Below are positions 4,835 through 11,755 of a DNA stretch of 11,755 bases, piece after piece. Position numbers and translations under genes: made by a program. Numbering within the stretch: position 1 is the stretch's first letter; the number at the start of each line of letters is the position of its first letter. The notes under the pieces were generated by a model, which searched no databases, had not been told where the DNA came from, and saw nothing but the letters and a program-made list of their open reading frames with translations. Origin of the DNA: Hyphomicrobiales bacterium. Its GTDB lineage: Bacteria; Pseudomonadota; Alphaproteobacteria; Rhizobiales; HXMU1428-3. The DNA lies in NCBI GenBank assembly GCA_021775385.1, contig JAJFHW010000092.1:1-11755 (forward strand). The letters are read 5' to 3'.

Positions 4835-7800
4835 TTAAAAGAATTGACTGTTAGGTTTTTTCTTCAACTTTAATTGTGGCTGCGGTTTGAAAACCTTTGG
4901 CTTTGGTTTGAACTGCGGCTTGATCTTTACAGGTTTTTTATAAACCGGTTTTTTCAAGATTGGCTTTTTATAAATAGGCTTCTTAGGCTTATAAATAATT
5001 GCCTTTTTCTTACAGCTTGCACCGCCTTTGCCAATTGGCTTTCTAGTCCAGCCTTTCGGGCAACCGCAATACCAACCCTTGCCACGCTTGTATAATTTAC
5101 CATTGTAACAGGGTGGTTTTGGAGTTGAGACTTGGCGCTTCTTACAACTTGCACCACCCTTTTTACCAATTGGTTTTCTAGTCCAACCTTTCGGGCAACC
5201 ACAATACCAACCATTGCCGCGCTTCAATAGCTTGCCACTATAACAAGGAGGCTTGGCTACAACTTTGGGCTTTGAGCAATAAGCACCACCGTTGCTATAG
5301 GCTTTACGCTTATAGTTTGCTGGGCATTTGCAATACCAACCCTTGCCTCTTTTAACCAGGCGACCATTGATACAGTCAGGCTTAGGAGTGCTCACTGGTG
5401 GCTTGATACAAGCAGCACCACCATTTTTCCCAATTGGTCTACGGTTCCATCCCTTAGGACAGACACAGCGGTAAGCTTTACCAGCTTTCACCAACTTACC
5501 TGAGCGACAAGGAGGAACGGTAGATACTTGAGGTGAACAAACACCTTTCTTGTTACGTGAGTATCCAGCTTTACAAACACAGCGACCATTTTTGTCTTTA
5601 AATTCGTTACGGCCAGGTTTACAGCCCTGCGGAATTTTCTGACAAATGCCATAGTTGTTTTTAGCAAATCCAGATTTACAAACACATTGACCTTGTGAGT
5701 TACGGAACTCATTTGGACCAAGCTTGCAAATTTTAGGAAGCTTCACGCAATAACCATTTTTGCTACGAGAGAAGCCAGCTTTACAAACACAACGACCATA
5801 CTTGTCTTTGAATTCATTGCGGCCAGGCTTACAACTCTGTGGTTTCACACAGACACCACGTTTGTTCTTAGCATAGCCAAGCTTACAAACACATTGACCT
5901 TGTGAGTTGCGGAACTCGTTTGGACCGAGCTTACAAACAGGAGGCAGTTTCACGCAATAACCACGTTGAGTGCGGTTATAGCCAGCTTTACAAACACAGC
6001 GACCATATTGGTCTTTGTACTCATTGCGACCAGGCTTACACGTGTCAGGTTTGCGGCAGATGCCATCTGAGCCACGAGTGTAACCTCGAAGGCAAACACA
6101 TTTACCTTTGCGGGTTTTGTACTCGCCTTGACCAGGTGTACAGCCGCGTGACGGTGGTACACAAAGTTTTGGACCTTTGCGAACAAAACCAGGGCGGCAT
6201 ATGCAACGGTTGTCACTTGTCCGCATTTCACCTTTACCAACTTTACAAAGCGGCTCAAGATCTACAGGCGGAATAACTGGCGGTATACCCGTATCACCAA
6301 CACAGCGACGACCATTCCATTTTGTGCCAGATGGGCAGACACAAGCACCATTGTCGTTCATCACTAGTGGCGCACGGCATTGGTCTTCTTTAGGAGGATC
6401 AAGTGTAAAGTTATGACACCCAACAATTTCACCATTACCAGCTTTACCATTAGTACCAGGTGCCGCTTTCGCGCCTCCATTGCCTATAGCAGGGTCAGTA
6501 ACCATGGCACAATTGCGCAGAGTTCCATCAACTTTTACACTCTCTTCAAAAAGAAGACTGATTTGATGGGTCTGACTTTCACCAGCAGCCAAGTCTAACG
6601 TCCCTTGGCAAACAAAAGGAACAGCCGTTGGTTGCACAGCACATGGCAGAGGCGGTGAAATTGATTGAATAGCTACAGTCAATCCATTTCCAGCAAGACC
6701 AAGTGCATCAGCAATCTTAACAGAACCATTAAAGTCAGAAGTACCAGTATTTTTGATGGTTACATCAAACGTACAAGCTTCACCTTTAATACATTGAGCA
6801 GGGCCTGTTTTTTCAACGCGGATATCAACACCGCCTTCAACACAAGCTTTTCCAATGATAGAGCGGTTTTCTTCAGTGCCTTTAGGCTCATAATGGCCAG
6901 TTGCACAGTTTCTATAACGCTCATTGCCTTTACCTGAAAGTTTGATTTTAGCGTCAAAATAACGGGTCGTACCAGGTGTTAGGTGCTCTCCATTAATTGC
7001 ACAAACCAAATCAGGAACAGGTTCTCCTTCACAAGACCATTCAGGTCCATCAGGAGTTACATCTTCTGAAGTAAGAGGAGCATTCGTGCCAATGATACGT
7101 GCAACATCATAGATGCGAATAATACCAGTAGCTGGGCCACCACCATTATTACGAACCATAATCCGGCAAGAAATTAGTCCACCAAGTACACCAGGCTTAC
7201 ATTGCTTATCAATAGAAAGATCTGGTTTCTTGTCATCCTCTGGGTCTGAACCAGGTTCAGGGTCTTCAGGTAAATCACCTTCAGCACAAGCCTTGTCATT
7301 GCCAGGCTTAGCGTCCTTCAAAGTGGCGCAATTCTCAATTGTCTTCCCTTGATGTTCTGTTGGGTAATTGAATTTTGCACGAACTTTCAGAATAGTCTGA
7401 GCACCCGCAGGCAAGTTCGACGGAGGATGAGTACAAGTAAAGTTTTGCCCATCCACCGTTACACAATTCCAAGGTGGAACAGGTGTGAAGGTTACATTGT
7501 CTGGTTTATCGGAAAAACTATCTTTAATTTCCATTGGACCATTAAAATCACCATCGCCAATGTTTTTGACAATGATTTCATAATCGAGCGTACACCAGTT
7601 ATATTTACCAGAAGGCAAACTGGCACTACAATGTCTAAGCTTATAAGTTTTTTCAATTTTAAGCTCAGGCTCTTTCTCATCATTTTCATCAGGACAACCA
7701 GGGCTGCCTTTGATGCAAATTTCTGCACAATCTTTATCATTGGAAAGGTCGCCAAACGGGGCAACACCCATTTTACCATAATTTAATTTTGCACAGTTTT

Positions 7801-9307
7801 TGATTTTATCACTCGGCCACGCATTGCCAGGTGTAAAGCCTAATTTGAGGTCTTTAAATTCACCAGGGTTCAGCGTTAGCGATGGGTGCTTACAAATATA
7901 CATGGCAAGCCCAAGGTTATAAGCACAGCTCCAACTCACATTCGGGCCACTAGTAATGGCTGCACGATGTGGAATTTGCCATTCATAAAGGGCAAGTTTA
8001 CCAGTATATTTTTTATCTCCCACATTCTTAACGCGAATGCGGAATTTGCAATCACCAGAAGTCTTGTCACATTCAGAAACAAGCGCTTTTTTGGTGACTT
8101 CTAAATCAGGCTCTTTATCATCATCACAAGGAATGTCCTCAGGGATATCAATGATGATTTCTTCAGTACAGCAAGTTGCCAAACCATCAAAGTCAGCAGG
8201 GCCAACTTGTTTCACATTGTTGGTCAGAAGGTGAACGGTCATGCCTTTTGTGGCACCAAGTAGGTCCCATTCAAGGACACCGCCACCAGGAGGCACAACT
8301 TGGAAAGCAGGGTTCACAACAACACCGGGAGTAAGCGAAGTTAGCTCAATAGTAGTACCAGCAAGCTCAGGCCCAACAGGCATCTTGTAAGTAAGGTTAC
8401 CAAGAGGCCCACCTTTACATTCAACTTCACCTTTTTCAAATTTGATACACGGTCCATCACCAGGGTCGCCGCCGCCATCATCTGGCTTGTCACAGTCCGT
8501 CAGGTCGATGGTGAATTTAGTTTTCTTACCATCTTTCCAATTGGCTGGATCGGGTAATGAAGGGTCATGGCTCTTCGCGTTGGTGATGCCAAAATCAGTT
8601 GTCACCTTCAGCTTGGCTTGGTTAGCCTTCACTTTAGGTACCGGGAATTCAGCTTCATCAATTTTAGCAATCGCGGTAATCGTCCAAGAACGATCATCTA
8701 ATCCGCCATCACCATCTTTCTTATCAGCAGAAAATTGAATGCCAGCCGTCATGAAGTGATCATTTGGGTTGGTGACAGTTGAAAATGCAAAAGGGGTTGC
8801 ACCAAGAATATCACCTTTAACACTGGCAGATACCCAGGATAACCCTTTTGGAAGTTTATCAGTTACCTTTTGCGAAGCATTCGTAAACTCTTTGACATGA
8901 AACGCGGTCGGGTCATCCCAAAAACCAGGCGTACCTTGTACATGCAATTTAATTTTAAACCGCACATGCTTACAGCCCAGTTGCTCAGCTGTCTTGGTGA
9001 AAGAAAGCTTCGTTTCTGGTTGCGGTGGTTGGCCACCTGGTTGGACTTTATCCCCAGGCCCTTTAGGAACAGGAGGGCCGCCAGGCAGTTTTTTTTGCAG
9101 CCATTGGCTGGGTTTTTGCGCAGGCGATTTAGCCTGTACGGGCAGTATGGCACCAAGGGAAAGGCTGAGACCTAGCCCAATGGCACTAATCCAGCGTAAC
9201 GTGGATCCTTTGTTTTTTTGAGGTAACATGTCTTTCTCCCAAGCCTTAGAAGAGGCCTTTTTAGGTTTATCTCTATATCTGTCGCCAAAGGGCGTGAAAA
9301 AGTTCAT
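4835..9307 (-). CDS. Giant exported mosaic protein: shared Cys domain, DUF11-like repeats, two kinds of Cys-rich repeats, Lys/Pro tail
   Basis: A 1490-residue protein that I do not recognise as a named family. Order: long N-terminal extension (1-37); hydrophobic signal core (about 38-56) with a likely cleavage after VQA (A59); Pro/Gly linker; N-terminal domain (about 98-272); Asp/Gly linker; a Cys domain (287-394) also found in the upstream gene; four DUF11-like Ig-fold repeats (about 400-968); EGF-like four-Cys repeats (977-1257); four repeats of a second Cys type (1267-1432); and a Lys/Pro tail (1433-1490). No sortase, autotransporter or type IX sorting signal is visible. The role is probably extracellular or surface structural/adhesive, folding through disulfides after Sec export; this is inference. 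The start at 9307 has a perfect AGGAGG five bases upstream. An alternative ATG at 9229 (M27) has its own GGGAG site and would give a shorter, more ordinary signal peptide. It is second in an operon, 9 bases after the preceding gene. Confidence 0.85.
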   Translation of the reverse strand: MNFFTPFGDRYRDKPKKASSKAWEKDMLPQKNKGSTLRWISAIGLGLSLSLGAILPVQAKSPAQKPSQWLQKKLPGGPPVPKGPGDKVQPGGQPPQPETKLSFTKTAEQLGCKHVRFKIKLHVQGTPGFWDDPTAFHVKEFTNASQKVTDKLPKGLSWVSASVKGDILGATPFAFSTVTNPNDHFMTAGIQFSADKKDGDGGLDDRSWTITAIAKIDEAEFPVPKVKANQAKLKVTTDFGITNAKSHDPSLPDPANWKDGKKTKFTIDLTDCDKPDDGGGDPGDGPCIKFEKGEVECKGGPLGNLTYKMPVGPELAGTTIELTSLTPGVVVNPAFQVVPPGGGVLEWDLLGATKGMTVHLLTNNVKQVGPADFDGLATCCTEEIIIDIPEDIPCDDDKEPDLEVTKKALVSECDKTSGDCKFRIRVKNVGDKKYTGKLALYEWQIPHRAAITSGPNVSWSCAYNLGLAMYICKHPSLTLNPGEFKDLKLGFTPGNAWPSDKIKNCAKLNYGKMGVAPFGDLSNDKDCAEICIKGSPGCPDENDEKEPELKIEKTYKLRHCSASLPSGKYNWCTLDYEIIVKNIGDGDFNGPMEIKDSFSDKPDNVTFTPVPPWNCVTVDGQNFTCTHPPSNLPAGAQTILKVRAKFNYPTEHQGKTIENCATLKDAKPGNDKACAEGDLPEDPEPGSDPEDDKKPDLSIDKQCKPGVLGGLISCRIMVRNNGGGPATGIIRIYDVARIIGTNAPLTSEDVTPDGPEWSCEGEPVPDLVCAINGEHLTPGTTRYFDAKIKLSGKGNERYRNCATGHYEPKGTEENRSIIGKACVEGGVDIRVEKTGPAQCIKGEACTFDVTIKNTGTSDFNGSVKIADALGLAGNGLTVAIQSISPPLPCAVQPTAVPFVCQGTLDLAAGESQTHQISLLFEESVKVDGTLRNCAMVTDPAIGNGGAKAAPGTNGKAGNGEIVGCHNFTLDPPKEDQCRAPLVMNDNGACVCPSGTKWNGRRCVGDTGIPPVIPPVDLEPLCKVGKGEMRTSDNRCICRPGFVRKGPKLCVPPSRGCTPGQGEYKTRKGKCVCLRGYTRGSDGICRKPDTCKPGRNEYKDQYGRCVCKAGYNRTQRGYCVKLPPVCKLGPNEFRNSQGQCVCKLGYAKNKRGVCVKPQSCKPGRNEFKDKYGRCVCKAGFSRSKNGYCVKLPKICKLGPNEFRNSQGQCVCKSGFAKNNYGICQKIPQGCKPGRNEFKDKNGRCVCKAGYSRNKKGVCSPQVSTVPPCRSGKLVKAGKAYRCVCPKGWNRRPIGKNGGAACIKPPVSTPKPDCINGRLVKRGKGWYCKCPANYKRKAYSNGGAYCSKPKVVAKPPCYSGKLLKRGNGWYCGCPKGWTRKPIGKKGGASCKKRQVSTPKPPCYNGKLYKRGKGWYCGCPKGWTRKPIGKGGASCKKKAIIYKPKKPIYKKPILKKPVYKKPVKIKPQFKPKPKVFKPQPQLKLKKKPNSQFF
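4838..5011 (-). other. Lys/Pro-rich C-terminal tail of the giant exported protein
   Basis: Residues 1433-1490 consist largely of Lys and Pro, with short KPxYKKP, KKPxxKKP and KPKxKP type units and scattered aromatic or aliphatic residues. The segment is strongly basic, contains no cysteine, and is unlikely to fold. It could bind polyanions such as LPS, exopolysaccharide, teichuronic-like polymers or DNA, or pack against the cell wall. It is not a hydrophobic anchor and has no sortase motif. The function is inference. Confidence 0.7.
5012..5509 (-). repeat. Four tandem type-2 Cys repeats, about 43-45 aa each
   Basis: Four copies start at C1267, C1312, C1355 and C1400 and end at C1300, C1344, C1388 and C1432. 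The shared pattern is C-x2-G-[KR]-L-x-K-x-G-x-[AG]-[WY]-x-C-x-C-P, then a basic stretch and G-G-A-x-C, so four cysteines per unit. Copies 3 and 4 are nearly identical in protein and DNA, sharing WYCGCPKGWTRKPIGK, with one codon fewer in copy 4 before GGASC. The linker VSTPKP recurs before copies 2 and 4, and a related VSTVPP precedes copy 1, which suggests pairwise duplication. Confidence 0.85.
5537..6379 (-). repeat. EGF-like four-Cys tandem repeats (type 1), about 35 aa each
   Basis: About eight units begin at C977 (divergent), C1021, C1056, C1090, C1125, C1159, C1194 and C1229, with the pattern C-x(12)-[QRK]-C-[VI]-C-x2-G-[YF]-x(7)-G-x-C. The last five are highly regular, 34-35 residues apart, and alternate between a PGRNE form (1090, 1159, 1229) and a LGPNE form (1125, 1194). 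This gives a higher-order repeat of about 207-210 bp. The Cys spacing resembles short EGF-like or thyroglobulin-like extracellular modules, but four cysteines per unit is fewer than the six of canonical EGF. Confidence 0.85.
6398..8110 (-). other. Four DUF11-like Ig-fold repeats of the giant exported protein
   Basis: Residues about 400-968 hold four modules of 130-150 residues, starting at PDLEVTKKA, PELKIEKTY, PDLSIDKQC and VDIRVEKTG. Each has a [VI]-[KR]-N-x-G core such as RVKNVGDKKYTG, VKNIGDGDFNG and IKNTGTSDFNG. The first three share a later W-[SN]-C, and each has an NCA block (NCAKL, NCATL, NCATG, NCAMV) near its end. This matches the DUF11/CARDB-type beta-sandwich repeats common in bacterial surface proteins. 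Paired cysteines in each module suggest internal disulfides. Acidic linkers rich in Asp, Glu and Pro separate the modules. Confidence 0.75.
8126..8449 (-). other. Cys-containing domain shared with the upstream protein, copy in the giant protein
   Basis: Residues 287-394 run from C287 to C394, with C297, TPG at 326-328, V331, P333, Q336, P339, D348, LG (350-351) and a CC pair at 379-380. The same residues occur in the upstream protein at positions offset by exactly 300 up to LG, and by 298-299 afterwards. The domain lies between acidic linkers, as an independently folding module would. I recognise no named family; a small disulfide-bonded beta-sandwich is plausible. Confidence 0.75.
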
Positions 9308-9318: not shown

Positions 9319-11401
9319 ATGGTGCACAGCTAAACGCAGGAGCTTTGAGAGGGAGCACAGCTTTACAGCATGGAAACTCTCCGCCAGCATCAGCGTCGGC
9401 TTTGTTGTAGAGACAAACACCAAGGTCATAATTCTCATTGGGAAGCACACCTAAAACATCAAGTGTGTAAGGAGAAAGGGGACCAGGTATGGTCTGCATT
9501 TTAGGCGTCACATCAATTCCAGGCGTGAAAGACTTTGCTTTCATGCTATTGGCACCAATGCCAGCCGTTTCTTTTAGGTAAAGGTCAATCTGTAATTCAC
9601 CGGCAAAGCTACAGAAATAATCAATCGCTTTAACAGTTACACAGCGGCCTTTCCCGCCAGGAGGTGTATCGTCACCTGGATAATCTTCAGGTTCTGGTAA
9701 ATCCCAAGGATAAGGATAATAATCATTATAACCCACTTGGCCTTCACAAGGACGGTAGACTTCAGTATCGCCCACATAGCCCTTCACTTCAGGGTCATCA
9801 AAAAGACCATCAAAATCAATGAAATAACTCGCCCAAGGCGGAGTGTTTTGTGGTCTTGTAAGAGATTTATCCGTGAGTTGGACACCATGAACGTTAAATG
9901 GTCCACTAGGTGCTAATTGATCTTTCAGTTCTTCATTATAGCGAAGATTATCACCTGTTTTAACCAAAGTGGCATCACAAGCTCCAAAATTCATCGTGCC
10001 ATCTGGGTTATAACCATATTGGAGATCAATACCGCCCAAAGCTAATTTATGATCCGGCTCAAACCCAACAGCATAATTCGCTGGTGTTTCTACCCAACGA
10101 CTCGGTGTAGCAGGGTCATCTGGTGTTTCTGGATGATAGCGTAGCACATCAGACTCTTTTGATTTCGCAAAAGAAGCATAATCATATGGGTTTTGAAGCT
10201 CGCCTCGTTGAGAGAGGAACATATGTCCTTTATTATCAAAAGCGATATCTGTCACAGGGTGAGCATTTTCAGACGAGACATCAAGTTCCCAATTGGCTGC
10301 TCCAAAACTACCATCAGCATTAATTCCAACAGACATAATCATATGCCCGTCAGCTGCGTAATAATAAAGCCGTTTACCACGAACTTGCAGGCCATATACC
10401 AAACGCTCTTGTGCTGCAAAGCCCCATGTAGACGGGGTATCAGCTTTAAAAGAGCCGTTAGTAATATCCATCCGGTTCGAGGCATCATGCGCTTTAGGAG
10501 CTTGTCCTTTTGCTGTCCGACCAGTTGTACCATGGTCATATGTGCCTAAATCTTGGCCCTGCATGTCAAAACGGTGGATCATGCCAGTATCAAGGTCTGT
10601 AACGAAAAGTTGGCGTGTTCTCTTATCAAAAGCAATGTTGCCAAGCCCCGGGCCTGAATTATCAGCTCCATCAAGGCTAACATTAGCAAAGAGGCTAACC
10701 TCTCCGGTTAATCCATCAACCTTCCAGATCGCACCTGGTGTGCCACCATTTTTGGTACCAAACTGGCCGTCCATAAATTCAGCGTCAGCCTGACCCTGCT
10801 TCAAACGTTCCTTGCGTCCATCTCCATCACTGTCAGGCCCAACAATTTGAAGTCCATGTAAAACGGAAGAAGTCACATAAAGGTTCGGAACCTTAGGCAA
10901 GCCTTCACCCCTGTCGCCATCATCATAGGCAAGTCCAAAAACTTGGCCGATTTTATCGGCTTTCACTTCAAAAGGGGCTGGTAAGTTCACAAGTTGTCCC
11001 TGCGCTGGGCCCCCCATATTTTGTGCCTTGAATATGCGAAGACTGGCCCCTTCTGGGTCAATAAACGTCTCATCCAGCGGGTCAACACCAGGTGGAAGCC
11101 CTCCATCAGGAAATTTAAGGCCGGAAAAACCCGTGATCGCAATATCACCTTTATTAATGATTTGCTCTGTTGATTGGGCTGAGGCTGGTGAAAAAGAGAG
11201 GCATAAAAGCGGAAAAACAAGCGCCATAGCAAGAGCAATAGGGCTTGTTGTTTGCTTTAATTTACTTTGTTTAATCAAGGGTGGGGGGCTCTCTCTCAGG
11301 GGTGCACTACCAGGTGACCTACAGGAGGAACGAGGTATACGACAAGAAAAGAGGCCTAGATTGGTCATTTGACTATGACCTAATTCACGAAAGGTGCTCA
11401 T
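9317..11401 (-). CDS. Exported probable beta-propeller protein with C-terminal Cys domain
   Basis: A 694-residue protein that I cannot assign to a named family. A long polar N-terminus (1-53) precedes a hydrophobic core (about 54-70) and an ASA signal-peptidase site after A75. The body (about 115-550) has NHL/SGL-like propeller strands, for example LGNIAFD...QLFVTDLDTGMIHRF (about 253-278) and VTDIAFDNKGHMFLSQ (383-398). DSDGDGRKE (190-198) resembles a calcium-binding loop. An acidic/aromatic linker rich in Tyr and Pro (about 558-582) leads to a Cys domain (587-692) shared with the downstream giant protein. ATG 11401 has GGAG eight bases upstream and sits about 38 bases below the predicted ECF start site. 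An in-frame TTG at 11278 would give an ordinary short signal peptide but has a weaker ribosome site. No lipobox is visible. It probably acts outside the membrane, perhaps as a partner or ligand of the giant protein; this is inference. Confidence 0.8.
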   Translation of the reverse strand: MSTFRELGHSQMTNLGLFSCRIPRSSCRSPGSAPLRESPPPLIKQSKLKQTTSPIALAMALVFPLLCLSFSPASAQSTEQIINKGDIAITGFSGLKFPDGGLPPGVDPLDETFIDPEGASLRIFKAQNMGGPAQGQLVNLPAPFEVKADKIGQVFGLAYDDGDRGEGLPKVPNLYVTSSVLHGLQIVGPDSDGDGRKERLKQGQADAEFMDGQFGTKNGGTPGAIWKVDGLTGEVSLFANVSLDGADNSGPGLGNIAFDKRTRQLFVTDLDTGMIHRFDMQGQDLGTYDHGTTGRTAKGQAPKAHDASNRMDITNGSFKADTPSTWGFAAQERLVYGLQVRGKRLYYYAADGHMIMSVGINADGSFGAANWELDVSSENAHPVTDIAFDNKGHMFLSQRGELQNPYDYASFAKSKESDVLRYHPETPDDPATPSRWVETPANYAVGFEPDHKLALGGIDLQYGYNPDGTMNFGACDATLVKTGDNLRYNEELKDQLAPSGPFNVHGVQLTDKSLTRPQNTPPWASYFIDFDGLFDDPEVKGYVGDTEVYRPCEGQVGYNDYYPYPWDLPEPEDYPGDDTPPGGKGRCVTVKAIDYFCSFAGELQIDLYLKETAGIGANSMKAKSFTPGIDVTPKMQTIPGPLSPYTLDVLGVLPNENYDLGVCLYNKADADAGGEFPCCKAVLPLKAPAFSCAP
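9326..9643 (-). other. Cys-containing domain shared with the giant protein, copy in the propeller protein
   Basis: Residues 587-692 carry C587, C597, TPG (626-628), V631, P633, Q636, P639, D648, LG (650-651), CC (678-679) and C692. Compared with residues 287-394 of the downstream protein the spacing is identical through LG and then differs by only one and two residues. It is C-terminal here and internal in the partner. Confidence 0.75.
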
Positions 11402-11447: not shown

Positions 11448-11473
11448 GTCGTAGTAAAAAGCCATTAGGTTCA
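11448..11473 (-). promoter_or_regulatory. Putative ECF-type promoter of the secreted-protein operon
   Basis: On the minus strand TGAACC (11473-11468) is followed after 16 bases by CGAC (11451-11448). A GAAC-type -35 and a CG-containing -10 about 16-17 bases apart is the usual form of ECF sigma promoters. The predicted start site near 11440 leaves a leader of about 38 bases with GGAG before ATG 11401. The same bipartite motif faces the sigma gene on the other side of the spacer. Confidence 0.6.
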
Positions 11474-11552
11474 CAAAGAATTGAAATTTTTATAGATTAT
11501 GCCTTTTTTTATGAGTAATTTTAAGTAAATTCAGCTTTTGATGAACAACTGA

Positions 11553-11578
11553 TGAACCAAATGCCTCATTGAAACGAC
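11553..11578 (+). promoter_or_regulatory. Putative ECF-type autoregulatory promoter of the sigma factor gene
   Basis: TGAACC (11553-11558), 16 bases, then CGAC (11575-11578): the same hexamer, spacer length and tetramer as the operon promoter on the opposite strand. The implied start site near 11586 lies just upstream of ATG 11603, or slightly upstream of an in-frame GTG at 11594, giving a very short leader. Autoregulation is typical for ECF sigma factors. Confidence 0.6.
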
Positions 11579-11602: not shown

Positions 11603-11755
11603 ATGAACGAACAAAATAGTAAAGATAGAGACGTTGATTTAATGGAGCGTCTTAAAAATGGCGATCAAAGCGCCATGCAAGTGCTATATGCCCGTCATTA
11701 TCAGAGAATTTACCGTTTTATTTTACGTCAAATTAAAGATGAGACCATGGCTGAA
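11603..11755 (+). CDS. ECF-type RNA polymerase sigma factor, N-terminal fragment
   Basis: The first 51 codons of a gene that runs off the right edge. The sequence from D12 on, with LMERLKNGDQSAMQVLYARH and then YRFILRQI, matches region 2 of ECF (group 4) sigma-70 factors, which binds core polymerase and the -10 element; the usual following AED-type segment begins at the edge (MAE). An in-frame GTG at 11594, three codons upstream, is an alternative start, and neither ribosome site is strong. It is divergent from the exported-protein operon, and the spacer carries matching promoter-like motifs, so it probably controls that operon. No anti-sigma factor is visible; one may lie beyond the window. 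The ECF subgroup cannot be decided from this fragment. Confidence 0.88.
   Translation, partial: MNEQNSKDRDVDLMERLKNGDQSAMQVLYARHYQRIYRFILRQIKDETMAE

Follow-up and report, generated by a model that had tools for sequence, protein, structure and literature searches.

Candidate divergent promoters and a predicted exported-protein regulon of an ECF sigma factor in Hyphomicrobiales

Does the DNA between an extracytoplasmic function (ECF) sigma factor gene and the neighboring gene for a 694-amino-acid (aa) exported protein hold the promoters through which the sigma factor turns on both itself and its targets? The question is raised by a stretch of DNA from a Hyphomicrobiales bacterium, hereafter the window, which is the complete 11,755-bp contig C392 of a draft genome (2.88 Mb, 79% complete, 400 contigs). 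Relatives in a named collection are metagenome-derived Hyphomicrobiales genomes, including Methyloligella sp. DHS20C07 and Rhodomicrobium sp. DHS20C08. An earlier account of the window made from its letters (the sequence-only reading) described two matching, outward-facing sites and explained them by a self-activating ECF sigma factor whose regulon includes a giant exported protein. We find that the conservation of the half-sites and the pattern of sites across genomes support this explanation. We propose that a single ECF sigma factor of the NF009168/PRK12515 type uses the two sites as divergent promoters, with self-activation and a dedicated regulon, and we give this reading a probability of roughly 0.88.

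The paired sites and their conservation

The pattern TGAACC-N16-CGAC occurs exactly twice in the window, and the two copies face outward as claimed (the anchored loci are described below):

11553..11578, + strand: candidate promoter 1, TGAACC-N16-CGAC followed by GTAT, before the sigma operon; exact in 11/11 anchored loci, downstream A present
11448..11473, - strand: candidate promoter 2, TGAACC-N16-CGAC followed by CAAT, before the 694-aa gene; exact in 11/11 anchored loci, downstream A present

The spacer between the start codons, ATG at 11401 (- strand) and ATG at 11603 (+ strand), measures the 201 bp that had been given for it, and the distances from the end of CGAC to the ATG, which had been called suitable, are 46 nt for the 694-aa gene and 24 nt for the sigma gene. 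The claim that CGAC follows no other TGAACC of the window at 16 bases is also correct, but a site with one mismatch at 9281-9306 (- strand) had been overlooked. With one mismatch allowed there are three matches in the window against 0.41 expected, a number reached in 2 of 200 shuffles.

The sequence-only reading had suggested aligning the spacer from related genomes. In this alignment the half-sites are kept in orthologous spacers, whereas the spacer sequence itself changes. Both copies are exact at all seven loci of the genus (the window and six other genomes); among the six, the spacers and the DNA between the copies diverge in the more distant genomes, and across the genus loci the two copies stand 78 to 133 bp apart. 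At four Hyphomicrobium loci both copies are again exact, though the anti-sigma factors are 25-27% identical. We compared columns over 11 motif-anchored loci, a set that omits L050 (nearly identical to the window) and L194 (on the same contig as L063). Each of the 10 motif columns is invariant (11/11) on both sides, no spacer column exceeds 8/11, and one flanking column, an A three bases past CGAC, is likewise 11/11 on both sides. In other families of the order, TGAACC-N16-CG[A/T]C lies just upstream of the sigma gene at 11 of 15 loci (CGAC at 7, CGTC at 4), and 9 of these 11 also carry the downstream A.

Sites across genomes and the predicted regulon

Scanning whole genomes for sites ahead of exported or envelope genes had also been suggested. 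Run over the genus, the scan shows that about half of the sites stand a short way ahead of genes whose products start with a hydrophobic stretch, and many of these products are exported or envelope proteins. The motif is found at 110 places in the eight genus genomes, compared with 68 for the control pattern. After two pairs with identical flanks were merged, 109 of the 110 places gave 107 distinct contexts (the remaining place, G002:C8, was read separately). Ninety-one contexts are not deep in an open reading frame (ORF), a start codon follows at 10-100 bp in 69, and a strongly hydrophobic N-terminus is encoded by 55 of those 69 genes (55/107 contexts). By comparison, among the 30 of 68 control places that were examined, 3 are not deep in an ORF and none has a start codon at that distance or a hydrophobic N-terminus.

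Spacing and flanking sequence add detail to the motif. Varying the spacing from N13 to N19 in three genomes yields 6, 7, 10, 50, 4, 7, and 4 matches, and a spacing of 16 is about eight times as frequent as its neighbors in this tally, which was made by hand and counts one G007 place under both 13 and 16. An A, absent from the search pattern, stands three bases after CGAC in 88 of 91 contexts outside ORF interiors versus 6 of 16 inside. Given this enrichment, we take the working element to be TGAACC-N16-CGAC-NN-A; at the 55 best-placed sites, A or T often comes directly after TGAACC.

Clusters of downstream genes reappear with their own site across many genomes. For instance, an MHIL... membrane protein of about 187 aa has a site in all eight genus genomes (8/8), and a DsbA/ScsC-like protein has one in 7/8, counting G003, which was merged as an identical context; the window genome's copy of the latter matches Pfam DSBA and ScsC_N. 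The 694-aa protein has a site in 7/8 genus genomes, and the giant protein has an exact site in three. Several small Cys-rich exported families are among the targets, the largest cluster being present in 7/8 genomes, as are DUF898-type proteins (two genomes) and an L,D-transpeptidase (one genome). Seven of ten target proteins scanned against Pfam gave no match. At least two Cys are found in 31 of 32 small exported targets versus 30 of 45 nearby exported-like ORFs, a difference that related families inflate and for which the control is crude. One Cys-rich family also bears the site in Hyphomicrobium (L201), where most other matches that we read appear random. Elsewhere in Hyphomicrobium (L262, L264, and L203; G061, G063), a conserved TGAACCTCTCTCCATGATGCAGCGAC-type match precedes a 72-aa protein without a hydrophobic N-terminus. 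At L015, L076, L085, and L117, sites precede a short ORF starting MYYFRFL or MFYFRFL (38 aa in G007) that is possibly a very small exported product. An MHIL-type membrane protein is divergent from the sigma gene at L253 (G039), with a TGAACT-N16-CGAC site.

The window itself holds the following genes and the additional site:

11603..11755, + strand: ECF sigma factor, first 51 codons, truncated at the contig end
9317..11401, - strand: 694-aa exported protein, ATG at 11401
4835..9307, - strand: giant exported protein, 1490 aa (DUF7929, DUF11, Cys-rich repeats)
9281..9306, - strand: third site, TGAACT-N16-CGAC and then AGAT, where the giant gene begins; the ATG at 9307 overlaps the -35 of the site

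The 694-aa protein matched no Pfam or NCBIfam family and, against solved structures, no convincing relative (best E 0.058); it has relatives in 26 of the 61 genomes searched, its own included. Promoter 2 would drive the exported-protein operon, probably including the giant gene behind the 694-aa gene, with the third site as a further internal promoter ahead of the giant gene. At all seven genus loci the third site holds the same position, reading TGAACC in three and TGAACT in four (the window among these), and its CGAC is kept in all seven. The giant gene's ATG at 9307 is preceded by a conserved GGAGG, and a second in-frame ATG at 9229, preceded by a conserved GGAG, stands just ahead of the signal peptide. 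The third site thus lies over and between the two in-frame starts (9229-9307, - strand). A reasonable reading of this arrangement is that the operon transcript would give a long form of the giant protein and the internal promoter a short form. At L260 (G054), the gene immediately upstream of the sigma gene encodes a Cys-rich repeat protein that matches the tail of the giant protein in type.

The sigma factor, its anti-sigma factor, and the subtilase

The remainder of the window genome's sigma gene is on contig C57 (L247), followed by genes for an anti-sigma factor and an S8 subtilase. This sigma factor, cut by the contig end, scores 231.2 bits, just below the NF009168 cut-off of 236. Its complete orthologue in G002, where the neighboring 694-aa protein is 98% identical to the window's, scores 243.7 bits against the curated NF009168 (PRK12515) cut-off of 236 and contains Sigma70_r2 and Sigma70_r4_2 in 190 aa. 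Sigma factors of this type are present in 20 of the 61 genomes searched (own included), 17 of them above the family cut-off, and in none of 14 control genomes. Among 25 sigma loci, an anti-sigma gene lies close by at 24 and an S8 subtilase gene at 23; of the two exceptions, one sits at a contig end. At L255 (G041) neither was detected nearby.

The anti-sigma factor matches no Pfam family above cut-off; its N-terminal part is predicted to match the MucA and RsiW folds. For its periplasmic domain a propeptide/I9 arrangement is predicted; POIA1 and subtilisin propeptides rank among the best matches, at moderate scores. A Foldseek search with the anti-sigma model returned nothing at E <= 0.001, and a profile search against solved structures ranked the ion transporter SLC12A2 (E 0.0045) ahead of RsiW (E 0.44); the SLC12A2 match, over a stretch that takes in the membrane helix, was taken as spurious.

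Based on these data, we propose the following scheme. Promoter 1 would drive the sigma-anti-sigma-subtilase operon, giving a positive feedback loop, and each of the two operons is presumably transcribed as a unit. The adjacently encoded anti-sigma factor probably keeps the sigma factor at the membrane; proteolysis of the anti-sigma factor in response to an envelope signal would release it. The released sigma factor would then activate a regulon of exported, largely Cys-rich proteins and a DsbA/ScsC-like thiol oxidoreductase.

Because the outer domain of the anti-sigma factor is predicted to resemble a subtilisin propeptide, the structural comparison suggests that the subtilase may belong to the sensor. 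A more specific version, which we consider tentative, is that this domain mimics a subtilisin propeptide and is bound and cut by the operon's own subtilase, such that recognition between protease and propeptide would sense the state of export and disulfide folding. If true, the response to this propeptide-mimic sensor would be increased production of Cys-rich exported proteins, of the thiol oxidoreductase, and of the sensor itself. Having an even chance, in our estimate, is the explanation that the subtilase stands outside signaling and only matures exported proteins of the regulon, while the usual site-1 and site-2 proteases cut the anti-sigma factor. Features of the subtilase speak for this explanation: the G002 protein matches Peptidase_S8 (PF00082, 3e-32), its N-terminus is hydrophobic as read off the sequence, its match to a fervidolysin-type prodomain is marginally below cut-off, and its relatives of solved structure are subtilisins. 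D231, H262, and S417, which would be the catalytic residues going by the family's motifs, are invariant in four sequences. A regulon rich in exported proteins would offer possible substrates, and when the anti-sigma outer domain was compared by profile with the prodomain of the subtilase itself, no significant similarity emerged (P 0.025, probability 1.9%). Counting against a role restricted to maturation are the propeptide/I9-like prediction for the periplasmic domain and the subtilase gene's place near the sigma and anti-sigma genes at 23/25 loci. At L249 (G018; 5086-6461, reoriented) the S8 gene is split between overlapping ORFs (329 and 130 aa), through either a frame break or an assembly error.

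That the sites are read by the adjacent sigma factor is what we infer from autoregulation and co-conservation, and a number of observations weigh against it. In other families, 4 of 15 sigma loci have no site, including both copies in G041, and the downstream A is absent at 2 of the 11 site-bearing loci (G018, G021). The assembly of G006, the eighth genus genome, has regulon sites, but no sigma or 694-aa gene was found in it; a gap in the assembly is likely, since its contig C9 matches the C-terminal part of the anti-sigma factor. The exact motif and the reversed control have 10 matches each in the window's genome, so the count by itself is uninformative. We first weighed this count as counter-evidence; it is accounted for by position, since 0 of the 10 matches fall inside a picked ORF. 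In Hyphomicrobium there are 18-27 matches per genome versus 12-24 for the control, and many appear random. Finally, the 107 contexts come from eight related genomes and include orthologous sites, hence they are not independent, and their N-termini were classed by a crude hydrophobicity rule. The two sigma copies without a TGAACC site in G041 (8.0 Mb) are at L254 and L255.

The missing sites also bear on a second explanation, that another ECF sigma factor of similar preference, for example the alphaproteobacterial EcfG of the general stress response, reads the sites and the neighboring sigma gene is one of its targets. An AAC core in the -35 is shared among many ECF promoters, and canonical EcfG promoters have AAC at -35 and CGTT at -10, according to the review PMC8103513. 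However, instead of CGTT the -10 here is CGAC (or CGTC, at four loci of other families), the site tracks the sigma family's own operon (11/15 loci in other families, 7/7 in the genus), and the recurrent targets are exported or membrane proteins; we regard this explanation as improbable. A chance origin of the 10-base pattern in an AT-rich spacer, for which the equal raw count in the window's genome could speak, we reject as having next to no probability, because the motif is conserved on both sides in 11/11 anchored loci, distant ones included, and it also faces the sharp spacing peak, the independent downstream A, and the position of sites before genes with hydrophobic N-termini.

Comparison with known systems

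The proposal that the sites are divergent promoters of the adjacent sigma factor lets the promoters of this sigma family, present in 20/61 genomes of the order searched, be read as a code and predicts for it a regulon with many exported proteins. The sigma switch would also be linked with a subtilase and a propeptide-like sensor domain, a concrete protease-receptor hypothesis that can be tested. Autoregulated ECF sigma factors with an adjacent anti-sigma factor are a known and ordinary kind, and about 55% of ECFs are autoregulated according to a review (PMC8103513). Neither this promoter nor a propeptide-like anti-sigma factor is described in the literature searched, including parts of PMC7406223 and PMC10880074. 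The main ECF classification paper (10.1093/nar/gkaa1229) lay outside that coverage, and therefore the sigma group may already be listed there. Measured against the literature searched, the protease-linked version looks like an undescribed variant.

Like RpoE-RseA, SigW-RsiW, and AlgU-MucA, the system combines a two-domain sigma factor with an adjacent anti-sigma factor whose N-terminal part is predicted to be MucA/RsiW-like, an AAC-containing -35, a CG-containing -10, and, here presumably, self-activation. It departs from those systems in its anti-sigma factor, for which no Pfam family scores above cut-off and whose outer domain is predicted to be propeptide-like, in the S8 subtilase of its operon, and in its -10, which reads CGAC-NN-A. 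For an anti-sigma factor that recognizes an extracellular enzyme there is a precedent in RsiV, reported to be a lysozyme receptor (PMC4183432), which differs in both domain and enzyme; the subtilase link proposed here is hypothetical. Two further systems can be compared. Sinorhizobium meliloti RpoE6 (ECF26; PMC6180224) is likewise an alphaproteobacterial ECF sigma factor with an anti-sigma factor and, alongside among its targets, a serine protease gene. That gene (SMa0142) is divergent from the sigma gene, in contrast to the subtilase gene here; several RpoE6-dependent sequences, as we read them, show GGAAT where TGAACC stands here, and prominent RpoE6 targets are located near RpoE6, another difference. 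In ECF54 (PMC8999054) a subtilase is conserved in the sigma neighborhood, as it is here, but that group has no anti-sigma factor, whereas here one accompanies the sigma gene at 24 of 25 loci.
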